From NCBI GenBank assembly GCA_943788775.1, contig CALSRO010000005.1, positions 744,001 through 808,000 on the forward strand: DNA of 64,000 nt, in the 5' to 3' direction. The position numbers and the translations under genes were made by a program. Within the stretch, counting starts at the first letter, position 1; the number at the start of each line of letters is the position of its first letter. The stretch comes from an uncultured Flavobacteriales bacterium (GTDB taxonomy: Bacteria > Bacteroidota > Bacteroidia > Flavobacteriales_G > Salibacteraceae). Positions 5,163-10,382 of the stretch are shown piece after piece. The notes beneath the pieces are model-generated. The model was not told the DNA's origin. It saw only the letters and a list, made by a program, of their open reading frames with translations, and searched no databases.

Positions 5163-5186
5163 GATTTAGTGGAAATTCTAAACAAT

Positions 5187-5216
5187 AAAAAAGCCACTCA
5201 TTTGAGTGGCTTTTTT
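5187..5216. terminator. Bidirectional rho-independent terminator
   Basis: An 8-bp stem (GCCACTCA/TGAGTGGC) is flanked by an A-run on the left and a T-run on the right. It can therefore end transcription of both gyrB (plus) and the convergent anti-sigma-like gene (minus). Confidence 0.85.
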
Positions 5217-5235
5217 ATTGGGATACTCCACCGTT

Positions 5236-6468
5236 TTATAGGTATCGTATGATATTCGTGTATTGTTTTGTTTTACCACATTGGTCAGTGGCGGTAATTA
5301 GGTAAGTAAACACTTCACCGATTGCAATTGGTTCAGATGATCCGCGTAATGAACCGTCCCAAGCAATCATTTCACTTGTTTCAAATACAACCTGATTTGA
5401 GCTGACTCTTCGAATCTCAATATGAAAGCTGTTCAATTTATCCAACCCCACTGGCATCCAAGTGTCATTTAGGCCATCAGCTCTAGTAGGGCTAAAAGCA
5501 GTCGGTATCTGCAATTCTAATCCAGATTCAACCTTAATTGATCTTGATTCATATGAAGTGCATCCCCACTCATTAATGGTATGCATTCCAACAGTATGTA
5601 AATCTTTAGATACAACTGCAGAAGCTTTAGCCCCCTTAGCTACTGTATCACCGTCCAACACCCATTTATAGGTGTTTGATCCTGGAGTTCCAGCGAGCTC
5701 TAGTGTCGGATCCAAACATAGGTCGGAGGTGTTGTTGATAATCTCAAACTCCGCCTTAGGATTACTATATACTTCAATTGATTGAGTTAAAGATTGTTCA
5801 AACCCATCATTGAACTTCACAATCATGCTCGCAATATATTCTCCTGCATCTTCGAAGATATGCGTAACCTGAAGTCCACTCTTTACAGTTACACCATCAA
5901 AAATCCAAGTAACATCGGCAGCTTTCTCTAATTCTGCCGTAAAGGTAATTTCACTTGAAGGGCATTGTATTCCGTTCGCACTAAAATTGATGTTCTCTAT
6001 TCGATTCGAAATGTTCGCAAAAGATTCGTTGTCAAAATCGTTCTCAATAGAATTATTCTCAGCTTTCTTTTCGATTAAGGAGCCAGAATTGTTGGCCGCA
6101 TCACTTCCAGATAAAACTGTCAAAGCGATCTCCTCGTCAATAATATTAAGCTTAATGATGTGCTCCTCCTGTGGTGAGTGCTCAATCATGGAAAAATCAG
6201 ATTCAGATTCCTTGATTGGATCAGCAAAAAGCTCGATGTCCTCTTGTTCTTCCACTGGAGTCTCAAGTTTGTTCGCTTTGATGTCTGGAAGCGAGGTAAA
6301 TAGCACGGTTAAGGCAATTGTCGCGGCTATTCCGCCAATCAAGGGTGCTTTAAAAGGCACATGAGTCTGCGAGGCATTCAGTTTAGTTTCGAACTCAGTC
6401 CATGCATTTGCATTCGCTGGAGATTCCAAACTTTCGAGTTTACTCTTTATTATATCGTCAAAATTCAT
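5236..6468 (-). CDS. Anti-sigma-like membrane protein with PKD-like and C-terminal CHU_C (T9SS type B) domain
   Basis: 410 residues. Residues 1-35 are a short acidic cytoplasmic helix with the E-x-P-x(5)-W motif seen at the start of many Bacteroidota anti-sigma-like proteins. One membrane segment spans about 41-60. Residues 65-160 are an acidic linker. About 160-235 and 236-315 look like PKD/Ig-type beta domains. About 318-410 match the gliding-motility-associated C-terminal (CHU_C) domain: I-P-T-A-F-S-P, then D-G-L-N-D-T-W, and W-D-G-S near residue 370. There is no cleavable signal peptide, so a single-pass inner-membrane topology with a periplasmic C-terminus is likely. It starts 3 bases after the ECF sigma gene, which supports an anti-sigma role. 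That role is inferred from position and topology; the N-terminal domain is not a clear match to a named anti-sigma fold. Confidence 0.7.
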   Translation of the reverse strand: MNFDDIIKSKLESLESPANANAWTEFETKLNASQTHVPFKAPLIGGIAATIALTVLFTSLPDIKANKLETPVEEQEDIELFADPIKESESDFSMIEHSPQEEHIIKLNIIDEEIALTVLSGSDAANNSGSLIEKKAENNSIENDFDNESFANISNRIENINFSANGIQCPSSEITFTAELEKAADVTWIFDGVTVKSGLQVTHIFEDAGEYIASMIVKFNDGFEQSLTQSIEVYSNPKAEFEIINNTSDLCLDPTLELAGTPGSNTYKWVLDGDTVAKGAKASAVVSKDLHTVGMHTINEWGCTSYESRSIKVESGLELQIPTAFSPTRADGLNDTWMPVGLDKLNSFHIEIRRVSSNQVVFETSEMIAWDGSLRGSSEPIAIGEVFTYLITATDQCGKTKQYTNIIRYL

Positions 6469-6471
6469 TCT

Positions 6472-7053
6472 TTATTCCTGACTTATTTTATCAACTAGTG
6501 GTTTCAGCATCTTTCTCAGATTCAAACGTGCTTTAGATAAGTTGGACTTCGATGTTCCCACACTTATATCCAGCATTTCTGCAATTTCATTGTGATTGTA
6601 CCCTTCTAATACATACAGGTTAAAAACTGTACGATACGCTGGGGATAACTTCTGAACGGAATCTAGAACAACATTTACCGGAATTTGCTGGTAGACACTT
6701 TCATCTTCCTGTTCATCTTCCATATTGCTGCCAACTCTATCCGTCATTTCCGAATCAACAACCACAGGCTTTACCTTTTTTCTTCGGTAATTATCTATTG
6801 CTGTGTTGATCACAATGCGTTTAATCCAACCTTCGAAAGAACCGTCTCCTTTATAGTTCTCAACACTTTTAAATACTTTGATAAATCCGTTTTGAAGAAT
6901 ATCCTTCGCTTCATCATCATCCTTTGCATACCTCCTACAAACGCTTAAAAGCCGCCTGTAGATTGCATTGAAAACATCTTCCTGAGCTTTCCGACTTCCA
7001 TTTCTGCAACCTTCTATAAGTTGTGCTTCTTCATGTGGATGCCATATGCCCAT
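6472..7053 (-). CDS. ECF-type RNA polymerase sigma factor
   Basis: 193 residues, sigma-70 family, extracytoplasmic-function group. Region 2 lies at about 25-95 (D-D-D-E-A-K-D-I-L-Q-x-x-F-I-K-V-F, then G-S-F-E-G-W-I-K-R-I and N-x-x-I-D-x-x-R-R). Region 4 lies at about 125-185 (L-S-P-A-Y-R-T-V-F-N-L-Y, then G-Y-N-H-N-E-I-A-E-M-L and S-x-G-T-S-K-S-N-L-S-K-A-R). It would direct core polymerase to a small regulon, held in check by the protein encoded 3 bases downstream. The gene for a large T9SS substrate ends 41 bases upstream on the same strand, so the three may form one operon. The target promoter is unknown; autoregulation is possible. Confidence 0.92.
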   Translation of the reverse strand: MGIWHPHEEAQLIEGCRNGSRKAQEDVFNAIYRRLLSVCRRYAKDDDEAKDILQNGFIKVFKSVENYKGDGSFEGWIKRIVINTAIDNYRRKKVKPVVVDSEMTDRVGSNMEDEQEDESVYQQIPVNVVLDSVQKLSPAYRTVFNLYVLEGYNHNEIAEMLDISVGTSKSNLSKARLNLRKMLKPLVDKISQE

Positions 7054-7094
7054 TTACTAGATTAAAGACGTTAATTTAAATAATGGTTGCTGGA

Positions 7095-10000
7095 TTATTT
7101 TAGTCCAGTAGGATTACCCGTTTTTCCAATCAGAATGTGTCCAGTGATTTTCTTTGGTTCGTTGTCCTTATCAACATATCGAAGAACATATGGGTAGCTT
7201 CCTGCAGTGACAAATTCACCATTGGTAACGCGTCTACCATCCCAAGCAAAATTCGGGTTTTTCGTATAGAATATTTTGTGTCCCCAACGGTCCACAACTA
7301 CCAATTCAAAACCATTTGGCATGATGCCTTCACCTTCAATTTTCCAAAAATCATTAAGGCCGTCACCATTTGGACTGAAGGATTGAGGAATATAAATAGT
7401 CTGCTCTAGGGAATGATGTAGATACTTGGTAATCGTATCTACACATCCATCAGAACTAGTTGCGATTAAGCTCACGGCATACCAGCCTGTATCTATAAAC
7501 TCATGACTAAAGATGCTGTCCGCGACATATTCGGTACCATCTAAGAGCCACTCAATTGTTTCTGCAGAAATGGACCTATCCGCAAATTCAACGAATGGTT
7601 TAATCGTTGTGGGATTTTCAGGTGAATGTGTAAAGCTGGCTGTTGGAGCCTCTAAAATGTGAATTAAGCACTCCTCAGTTCGTTCAGCATAACACCCAAA
7701 GTCGGTAGTGACAGACAGCGTAACGTCATAGCATCCTGGCTTCTCATATTTATGGGAAATTGAATCAGTTTTTGCCTTATACACTGCATTTCCATCGCCT
7801 AGGGTCCAATTGTATTCATATCCAGGTCGCCACTCATCAATGGATATTGTGACGAGCGCATCTGTACATGATTCTGTTGGTGTGGCAGAGAAAGGCGGAG
7901 CGTCAGGCTCGCCTACATATATGTAAGCCGTGTCTACCCCTGCCGGGCTCAGACACAGGTCAGTAATGGTAACTACATACATGGTAGTTTTCACAGGCTG
8001 CGCAAATTGTATTGGGTTTCCATCCCATGATGATTGATTCCATGAATATCTATGCTGATTTGGTCCTCTAAAGCCACCACGTCCACTAGCAATCAAGTAA
8101 ACGCTCTCACCCGCACAAAGTGAGTCATCTTCTATTCGTATGTCGGCATCTATTTTACTGTATCCTCCAACTTGCACAAAAACACTATCGATATAGGGAG
8201 GTGTGCCACAAAAATCGCTCACGGTAATCGTATACCATACGGGCAGGTCAGGGCTAATGGTTGCTGTTGCACCAAAGGTGCCTGAGCTCCAAGCATATGA
8301 ATACAGACTATCTCCACCGGTTCCCTCAACAGTTACATCGATAGTATCGTAAGGGCAAATGGTGTCTACTTCCGGTATTATAATACCCAATGGCATTCTC
8401 ACATTGATCCTAACACTTGCCGTGTCGCCAGGGCAGCCGTTGGCATCAGTCGTGCTGACAAAGTAGGTTGATGTAATGATCGGATCGACAGTTGTAGCGA
8501 CATTTAGCGATACACTATCTCCTGTTAGAGAATCTAAAGTCCACAAGTAATTGTATGGTGCCGTTCCGCCCACGGTGGCGGCCACCAATGCGGCACTATT
8601 AGAAATACAAATAGTCGTATCACCAAAGGCTTGCGTTACAATACTATCAGGAACTGAAATAACAACAAACGTGGATGTGTCACATCCGTTTCCATCGGTA
8701 ACAGTTAGCCAATTTGTATCCGCGCATAATGCTGTAGCCTGCTGCGTGGTTTCTCCGGATGACCAGTTATACATAAAGTTTCCCACACCACCAGAACCAT
8801 TGCCAAGTGCTTGGGCGTCACACCATGTCACACCTGGACAAGAAACAGGAGTAGGGTTAGTAATACTTGCGCCTACCAAAGAAGGTTCATCGACAGTGAC
8901 AGAACCAGTTTGGATCAAACAACCATCAATAGTGACAAAGTAGGTGCCCGCGCTGACATTGTTTAATGTGTCCGAATCGAGCGATGTCCCAATTGTGGAA
9001 TCAATAACAGTGCTGTCCGGTGACCAATAATAAGAGTACAGACCGTCCCAATTCAAACCTGCATAATTATTTGTGTCTACTGCGAAGGCAGTTCCGGTGG
9101 AGTCTCCGTTACAAAGCACATCGATGGATGAGGCAAACAGTCCAGTGACCGTATCGGGTTGATTTATTGATGTAAAGCCAATGGCGAATTCTGAATTACT
9201 TCCGAATGCATAAACTGTATAGGACCCTGCTGGGGCTCCAACTAAAGAGTCGGTGTCATTCGCTGAAGTATGCACAGCCAGCGTATCGCCTGTGCCATCG
9301 TGCACCCAATAAAAAGTGTAAGGAGGCAACGTTAGGGCACTCGTATCCCAAGCTATTGCCACTCCAGATGAGTCATTGGTGCAGTCGACATCAATGGAGT
9401 CCGTTTCAAGGTTTATGCAACTTACCGCAACATATACACTGTCAGAAACAGAATCTCCATTGCATGTATATCCATTTGCATAAACCCAAGTAGATTGATT
9501 AAAAGAGGTAGTGATTCCATTTCCAATCGCAAAAGGTTGACCGTTAAGCGTTGACCATTGAATTGGAGAAGTCGGAATAAAGCGGATTGATTGGTTACTC
9601 GCTGTCCATTGCTGATCATTTCTTCCAGCTACAGCCGTGGCTATTGTACCATTTGCATTATGAGTGCCTTCTGTACCATCGCCATTTCCCCAATTCGTGC
9701 AAACGGGAACATTCGTTAAGTTGTTATGTATAATGTTCGATGCTTCATGCAGAACGATTTGGAATGTCCCATAACTGGAAGTACATGAGTACATTGGAAC
9801 TGAACTCCAAGTAACAATTAACTTGCGCAATGGAGCAGTCCCCACTGTTTGATAGCTGACATAAGGCCCAGATCCAGAGGCTGGATTCCAATCTCTCCAA
9901 GGCCCCATGATGTTATTCTTTGGAGTATTGTTATTAGTACTTGGAATAGATTGAACTACCCATGTTTGTGTCTGACCATTACTAAAGCCTATCCAACCAT

Positions 10001-10304
10001 TACTGCATATATAGAATTGAGTGTATTGTCCGCAATAAAATGAAAAGGTGAATCCAATGTTAAATGGACCTTGAATTTGGTCGTCACTCATATTGATGCT
10101 CGTACCACCAACAGATTCCGTTTGATACGCTATAGTATCATAGGTATAACCATTGGATGCACCCGAATCAGCAAAAAGATAAAGAAACACAGAATCGGGT
10201 GGACACGTTTGAATTAGCGTGTCAAACGGAATATTAAATGTAGCCTGTGAAAATCCTGATAAGGAGACTAAAGAAAAGATAAAATAAAGCAAGAGCTTTT
10301 TCAT
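7095..10304 (-). CDS. Large secreted protein with SprB-like repeats, PKD domains and T9SS type B sorting domain
   Basis: 1069 residues. The signal peptide is clear (M-K-K-L-L-L-Y-F, then S-G-F-S-Q-A). About 1-300 form a beta-rich N-terminal region. About 300-560 hold SprB-like repeats, with recurring D-V-x-C-x-G/N-D-S-x-G and V-x-A-G-T-Y patterns. These are followed by further Ig/PKD-like modules, with a PKD domain near 800-890 and another near 890-965. The last 95 residues are a CHU_C domain (I-P-Q-S-F-S-P-N-G-D-G-L-N-D, then W-D-G-R), the type B signal for export by T9SS and attachment at the cell surface. Such proteins are usually adhesins or matrix proteins. It lies just upstream of the sigma and anti-sigma genes on the same strand. 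The ligand is unknown. Confidence 0.88.
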   Translation of the reverse strand: MKKLLLYFIFSLVSLSGFSQATFNIPFDTLIQTCPPDSVFLYLFADSGASNGYTYDTIAYQTESVGGTSINMSDDQIQGPFNIGFTFSFYCGQYTQFYICSNGWIGFSNGQTQTWVVQSIPSTNNNTPKNNIMGPWRDWNPASGSGPYVSYQTVGTAPLRKLIVTWSSVPMYSCTSSYGTFQIVLHEASNIIHNNLTNVPVCTNWGNGDGTEGTHNANGTIATAVAGRNDQQWTASNQSIRFIPTSPIQWSTLNGQPFAIGNGITTSFNQSTWVYANGYTCNGDSVSDSVYVAVSCINLETDSIDVDCTNDSSGVAIAWDTSALTLPPYTFYWVHDGTGDTLAVHTSANDTDSLVGAPAGSYTVYAFGSNSEFAIGFTSINQPDTVTGLFASSIDVLCNGDSTGTAFAVDTNNYAGLNWDGLYSYYWSPDSTVIDSTIGTSLDSDTLNNVSAGTYFVTIDGCLIQTGSVTVDEPSLVGASITNPTPVSCPGVTWCDAQALGNGSGGVGNFMYNWSSGETTQQATALCADTNWLTVTDGNGCDTSTFVVISVPDSIVTQAFGDTTICISNSAALVAATVGGTAPYNYLWTLDSLTGDSVSLNVATTVDPIITSTYFVSTTDANGCPGDTASVRINVRMPLGIIIPEVDTICPYDTIDVTVEGTGGDSLYSYAWSSGTFGATATISPDLPVWYTITVSDFCGTPPYIDSVFVQVGGYSKIDADIRIEDDSLCAGESVYLIASGRGGFRGPNQHRYSWNQSSWDGNPIQFAQPVKTTMYVVTITDLCLSPAGVDTAYIYVGEPDAPPFSATPTESCTDALVTISIDEWRPGYEYNWTLGDGNAVYKAKTDSISHKYEKPGCYDVTLSVTTDFGCYAERTEECLIHILEAPTASFTHSPENPTTIKPFVEFADRSISAETIEWLLDGTEYVADSIFSHEFIDTGWYAVSLIATSSDGCVDTITKYLHHSLEQTIYIPQSFSPNGDGLNDFWKIEGEGIMPNGFELVVVDRWGHKIFYTKNPNFAWDGRRVTNGEFVTAGSYPYVLRYVDKDNEPKKITGHILIGKTGNPTGLK

Positions 10305-10308
10305 TCGG

Positions 10309-10316
10309 CAAATCTA
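10309..10316 (-). promoter_or_regulatory. Possible -7 element next to the T9SS-substrate start
   Basis: On the minus strand the bases read TAGATTTG, fitting TAnnTTTG, only 4 bases before the ATG at 10304. Transcription would then start at or near the start codon (leaderless). No TTG is seen at the -33 distance, so it may be chance or a site for a different sigma factor. Confidence 0.3.
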
Positions 10317-10352
10317 ATGTTATACTCTCTTAAACGCTATTGAGAATTTAAG

Positions 10353-10382
10353 TTGCTTAGCAATTACTATAATATAGTTTTG
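10353..10382 (+). promoter_or_regulatory. Bacteroidota-type promoter for mdh
   Basis: TTG at 10353-10355 and TAGTTTTG at 10375-10382 are 19 bases apart, matching TTG-N17-23-TAnnTTTG. The predicted start, near 10389, leaves a leader of about 25 bases before the mdh ATG. Confidence 0.6.

Follow-up and report, generated by a model that had tools for sequence, protein, structure and literature searches.

An ECF sigma factor and the membrane protein encoded directly behind it in an uncultured Flavobacteriales bacterium appear to form a regulatory pair for cargo of the type IX secretion system (T9SS). On balance, it is rather probable that the membrane protein is an anti-sigma factor with a pseudo-CTD as its sensor and that T9SS cargo is under the control of the pair, in what is plausibly a secretion feedback, with both the binding of the sigma factor and the sensing being presumed. 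The pairing of the two genes, their predicted promoter, the predicted cargo-rich regulon and the loss of the RWG motif from the sensor domain are evident from the sequences themselves. The finding bears on how Bacteroidota fit their output of very large surface proteins to their type IX capacity, the known PorXY-SigP control being one of machine genes. For this task the system offers a definite candidate: its promoter is defined, its cargo regulon is predicted, its sensor domain is missing a motif and it is widely spread in the class. Its short promoter pattern lets cargo regulons be read off genomes and, if the feedback reading is true, a cell may adjust the amount of cargo it makes to the state of its secretion machine.

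Organization of the locus

The window, i.e., the whole stretch of 64,000 nucleotides that was analysed, carries the genes listed in Table 1. An earlier note on this DNA had described three minus-strand genes, and the open reading frames match its description exactly, with 41 bases between the cargo and sigma genes and 3 bases between the sigma gene and that of the membrane protein. The naming of a type B T9SS substrate and of an ECF sigma factor also holds. The cargo protein exceeds the curated cut-offs of both CHU_C (63.9 bits, cut-off 27) and TIGR04131 (50 bits, cut-off 35), and sigma-70 regions 2 and 4 of the sigma factor are both above theirs (62.5 and 51.9 bits). The membrane protein has a single helix and a PKD_4 match of 30.4 bits. 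The terminator hairpin common to the sigma operon and gyrB is strong by folding and was overlooked by the terminator scan.

Table 1. Features of the locus (positions of the window)
Feature	Position	Strand	Details
Cargo gene	7095..10304	-	1069 aa; signal peptide, PKD/Ig-like domains and CHU_C; T9SS type B
CHU_C of cargo protein	about 7394-7134	-	residues 971-1057
Predicted promoter of cargo gene	10332..10356	-	GCAACT-N14-CGTTT; start codon 27-28 bp further on
ECF sigma factor gene	6472..7053	-	193 aa
Predicted autoregulated promoter of sigma operon	7066..7090	-	GCAACC-N14-CGTCT; start codon 12-13 bp further on
Anti-sigma-like membrane protein gene	5236..6468	-	410 aa
N-terminal two-helix segment of anti-sigma-like protein	6364..6468	-	residues 1-35; presumed sigma-binding
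Membrane helix of anti-sigma-like protein	6289..6345	-	residues about 42-60
PKD domains of anti-sigma-like protein	5524..5979	-	residues about 164-315
CHU_C-like domain of anti-sigma-like protein	5269..5511	-	residues 320-400; without RWG motif
Terminator hairpin	5183..5220		between convergent ends of sigma operon and gyrB; -24.4 kcal/mol, z -10.5

Conservation of the pair

An even sample of the class, comprising 296 genomes, contains 55 full-length matches in 13 family-level groups, and a separate search adds one more such group (f3), which raises the spread to at least 14. This conservation of the sigma/membrane protein pair implies that the observation is not due to chance. The sigma gene is directly upstream in 17 of 19 class-level loci, while the other two may be data or gene-calling gaps. 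Likewise, within the family of the window the gene of the membrane protein directly follows the sigma gene in differing surroundings, and in one genome (G009) it is apparently split over two ORFs. The record CP034120.1, titled Glaciecola amylolytica, contains the pair described here, which is of Bacteroidota type, and its title looks wrong.

The cargo gene is a less constant neighbour. The complete loci of the genus have it upstream of the sigma gene, as do g13 and g3; families f25 and f55 have homologues at that place (E about 1e-58 to 1e-60), and G038 and f17 a CHU_C gene. In the remaining loci the sigma gene is usually first. The cargo gene as an invariable partner was thus rejected, being upstream of the sigma gene only in some lineages. 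Rather, judged from gene order, the conserved unit is the sigma factor with the membrane protein, and the cargo gene is optional. Large CHU_C genes are enriched just downstream of the pair (7/29 same-strand genes vs 23/1125 genes in the loci, with the kinship of loci ignored).

The membrane protein as a likely anti-sigma factor

The gene of the membrane protein lies directly downstream of the ECF sigma gene and is conserved with it. Among its relatives, 68/69 have a membrane helix at the matching place after a short N-terminus (by hydropathy only), and W23 of the N-terminal segment is present in all 69 full-length relatives. No recognised anti-sigma domain of Pfam matched the protein, and hence it is labelled here as anti-sigma-like. 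From the general knowledge of ECF systems, its adjacency to the sigma gene, its one helix and the apparent autoregulation together make it the likely anti-sigma factor of the adjacent sigma factor. In other orders, the gene after an ECF homologue mostly encodes a membrane protein that lacks CHU_C and has a similar N-terminal segment. Since a similar segment carries different ectodomains in these orders, it looks like an old module to which varied ectodomains were attached.

An AlphaFold model of the fused sigma and anti-sigma proteins, whose alignment was built with in-frame read-through rows, reached a mean pLDDT of 81.8 and a pTM of 0.49, with no interface scores, and supports the domain layout only. 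The fusion itself probably accounts for the long helix predicted across the junction. Foldseek matched the model to ECF sigma structures, several of which were solved with their anti-sigma factor, and also to Ig-like domains such as that of the Aureispira grappling-hook protein. Thiol sensing through two nearly invariant cysteines (C169 and C303) was set aside by inspection, as similar cysteines recur in the PKD/Ig-like domains of cargo.

The CHU_C-like domain and its lost motif

The earlier note had placed a CHU_C domain on the membrane protein. This is true of the family, where 21/23 members of the anti-sigma-like proteins match CHU_C (best 1.9e-13), although the protein of the window itself stays below both curated cut-offs (CHU_C 18.6 of 27 bits, TIGR04131 19.3 of 35 bits). 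In a tree, a split with a support of 0.68 sets all 88 anti-sigma domains, and only one cargo domain, to one side, and the tree places them as a distinct subfamily in one clade. These matches and the one clade led to the rejection of a spurious CHU_C call at the family level. The four strands predicted for the CHU_C-like domain (542-549, 555-559, 581-589 and 595-604 in the numbering of the fused model) resemble those of the cargo CHU_C domain (121-125, 131-135, 156-165 and 171-180).

The RWG motif separates the two groups. It is found in 1/70 anti-sigma CHU_C-like domains vs 39/39 cargo domains, a count that is perhaps somewhat favoured because the cargo set was gathered with a profile seeded on the cargo domain of the window. 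Among the class-level loci, none of the anti-sigma domains has RWG, and one of three upstream cargo domains has RHG. The FSPNGDGxND stretch is also partly lost or relaxed in the anti-sigma domains. As RWG is lacking, the CHU_C-like domain is probably not exportable. In Flavobacterium johnsoniae each of five conserved type B motifs is required for secretion (PMC12618676), and RWG may or may not be among these five.

The simplest reading of these sequences is that the domain keeps the fold, and perhaps a contact surface, and stays unexported. The loss of RWG would also be compatible with a domain that has given up contact with the T9SS. The earlier idea that this domain meets the same machinery as the cargo is weakened, given that the motif is systematically lost here and kept in the cargo domains compared.

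A predicted promoter shared by the pair and its putative targets

A two-box element, [AG]GCAAC[CT]-N14/15-CGT[CT], stands before the sigma genes, usually 10-20 bp ahead of the start codon. It is present in 42/55 sigma-first loci vs 0-2/55 in shuffles, and several of the loci without it have a start codon called too far upstream. Among the class-level loci, which partially overlap the first set, 13/18 have the element. It tracks the CHU_C-type anti-sigma (35/39), in contrast to 4/39 of the ECF relatives with other partners. In related ECF genes without a CHU_C partner (L141, L169, L173 and L174, of Mucilaginibacter and relatives) a variant TGCAACC ... CATCT was noticed by eye.

At loci of the window layout the element occupies the cargo-sigma gap in 14/14 cases, and a copy of its own precedes the cargo gene in 13/14. 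A conserved predicted ECF-type promoter upstream of the sigma gene itself is an apparent autoregulation. With a promoter in the 41-bp gap and a second copy before the cargo gene, the sigma and anti-sigma genes would form an autoregulated two-gene operon and the cargo gene would be a separately promoted target, from which read-through may occur. The simple single operon proposed earlier was hence rejected on account of the promoter predicted within the gap, the cargo gene having its own promoter and being missing upstream in most relatives. A TAnnTTTG-like box is also seen just ahead of the cargo start codon (window 10307-10320, minus strand), and other loci of the genus have a TTTG box resembling it. 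TAnnTTTG is the published sigma-A -7 consensus, and a second or leaderless promoter for the cargo gene is thus possible.

Predicted regulon in the source genome

The pattern has 28 matches in the source genome vs 38 for the reversed control, i.e., its total is at chance level, and most matches lie within genes. As in several other genomes with totals at chance, the signal is carried only by the position of a match and the gene downstream. Six intergenic matches have a gene after them. The predicted targets are the sigma operon itself, the cargo gene upstream of it, a secreted redoxin of 210 aa and three operons of two genes each, namely CHU_C operons on C6 and C2 (the C2 site being 142 bp ahead of the start) and a type A operon on C3. 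One further pattern sequence occurs twice with no gene after it.

Four of the five non-sigma units are T9SS cargo (three type B and one type A) and the fifth is the redoxin. The probability of three type B units among five is about 3.5e-5 at a background of 1.5%, i.e., 42 CHU_C genes over an estimated 2750 or so genes. Over the curated cut-offs, the genome contains SprA, 39 CHU_C matches, 8 PorP/SprF-like shuttles and 119 type A tails. No motif was found near sprA, the machine gene looked at individually, and T9SS machine genes were set aside as targets on this ground. Several of the shuttle genes adjoin CHU_C genes (C2, C3, C5 and C9). The CHU_C genes predicted to be under sigma control have no shuttle listed nearby and seem to be orphans among type B cargo.

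Predicted regulon in other genomes

The CHU_C operons of C6 and C2 recur in G010 and G020. The redoxin site recurs in these two and, within an over-long ORF call, in G012. Four genomes of the genus have the promoter before a secreted redoxin-like gene (L307:558-1190; L220, L223 and L343).

A stricter pattern gave 136 sites in 20 other genomes, 17 of them before sigma genes. Among the other 119 sites, 33 are located 5-60 bp ahead of a start codon vs 2.9 expected, with 23 unread sites scored as negatives. The reversed decoy pattern, run on six of the 20 genomes, gave 26 sites, of which 25 lie within genes and 1 is promoter-like; in the same genomes the real pattern is promoter-like in 23/56. The regions for a second reading were picked from the match list, in part for their T-rich spacers, with the genes downstream still unseen. 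CHU_C is encoded in 8/26 complete downstream units, and further units end in type A tails or hold long secreted proteins cut by the locus end. Some targets are non-cargo, for example AlgH-like genes, and some matches will be due to chance. In both f2 genomes (L273 and L290; G035 and G036) the motif stands 13 bp ahead of the start of a YqgE/AlgH-like gene.

The predicted cargo-rich regulon of the sigma factor is well supported by the sequences. Since it consists mostly of T9SS cargo, these sequences do tie the sigma factor to type IX secretion. The earlier idea of a regulatory unit tied to this pathway thus survives for the conserved pair and its regulon, and fails for the single operon.

Proposed mechanism and alternatives

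The sigma gene and the next gene would constitute an autoregulated operon in which the second product is the membrane-anchored anti-sigma of the first, an ECF sigma factor. The anti-sigma would hold the sigma factor through its short N-terminal two-helix segment and, by its presumed topology, would reach the periplasm with PKD and CHU_C-like (type B CTD) domains. The freed sigma factor would transcribe from RGCAACY-N14/15-CGTY promoters its own operon, the upstream cargo gene, a mainly T9SS-cargo regulon and, in the genus, a secreted redoxin. The CHU_C-like domain could be a pseudo-signal, with the fold kept and RWG gone, that most likely contacts a part of the type B route, or cargo, while remaining unexported. 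Secretion route or cargo is the first guess for its ligand, because a CTD-like domain sits on the regulator of CTD-bearing cargo. The occupancy of the type B route may then set the level of free sigma, the sign of this feedback being presumed. More tentatively, the anti-sigma may mimic cargo, so that its non-exportable copy of the type B signal samples the shuttle or translocon of the cargo and couples cargo production to secretion capacity via sigma.

It is also conceivable, though rather unlikely, that the pair controls T9SS cargo while the PKD and CHU_C-like ectodomain senses a cue outside secretion, such as a glycan, surface contact or envelope stress, and the CHU_C fold is reused for binding. 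Ligand binding is common among PKD and Ig-like domains, and the loss of RWG and of parts of FSPNGDGxND would suit such a reuse, as would the quite different ectodomains that related ECF factors of other orders have on a similar N-terminal segment. However, the regulated genes themselves encode CHU_C proteins, and the CHU_C fold is kept, as one clade, across many families. A single operon of the three genes with one promoter upstream of the cargo gene is improbable. It agrees with the common strand, the short gaps, possible read-through from the cargo gene and a scan that found no terminator between the genes (the same scan that missed the 5183-5220 hairpin), but a conserved predicted ECF promoter fills the cargo-sigma gap at each of the 14 loci and, in most relatives, no cargo gene accompanies the sigma and anti-sigma genes. 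Most improbable of all is that the ectodomain is cleaved and exported by the T9SS, its loss freeing the sigma factor: the strands are predicted as in the cargo domain, but RWG is missing in 69/70, other conserved positions are relaxed, whereas in F. johnsoniae five conserved type B motifs are each necessary for secretion (PMC12618676), and an internal helix anchors the protein.

Relation to known systems

A literature search for an anti-sigma with CHU_C, CTD or PKD, or for ECF control of T9SS cargo, came upon no account of the present system. As this search mostly left out subscription papers and preprints, it does not prove the novelty of the system.

The pair of an anti-sigma-like protein and its sigma factor that is regarded here as a probable controller of T9SS cargo has partial counterparts. 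Membrane anti-sigma factors such as RseA, RsiW and FecR share the place downstream of an ECF sigma gene, the one helix, the short cytoplasmic N-terminus and the apparent autoregulation, but the protein described here lacks a known anti-sigma Pfam domain and its ectodomain is PKD and CHU_C-like. It resembles type B cargo (CHU_C, TIGR04131) in that a CHU_C-like C-terminus, for which the same strands are predicted, comes after PKD domains. Unlike such cargo, it is anchored by an internal helix and is without RWG, and the copy of the window is under both curated cut-offs.

In Porphyromonas gingivalis, SigP acts with the PorX response regulator in the control of T9SS machine genes (PMC4800418), and PorA is a CTD protein in the PorXY-SigP signal path (PMC7712824). 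Both systems place type IX genes under an ECF sigma factor, here by prediction, and involve a CTD protein in the signalling. They differ in the targets, which are machine genes for SigP and predicted cargo genes here, in the proposed SigP motif, which is unlike the promoter found here, and in the partner, as the text of PMC4800418 mentions no anti-sigma factor whereas the partner here is a membrane anti-sigma-like protein. The SM6 promoters of Flavobacterium psychrophilum have a CGT box at -10 and precede T9SS components and the sigma/anti-sigma pair THC0290_1774/1773, according to the available portion of PMC9723704. The targets listed there are machine genes (gldN and porU) and not cargo. 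Compared by that description, both systems have a CGT -10 box and count T9SS genes among their targets, and in each of them a sigma/anti-sigma pair is itself preceded by this type of promoter.
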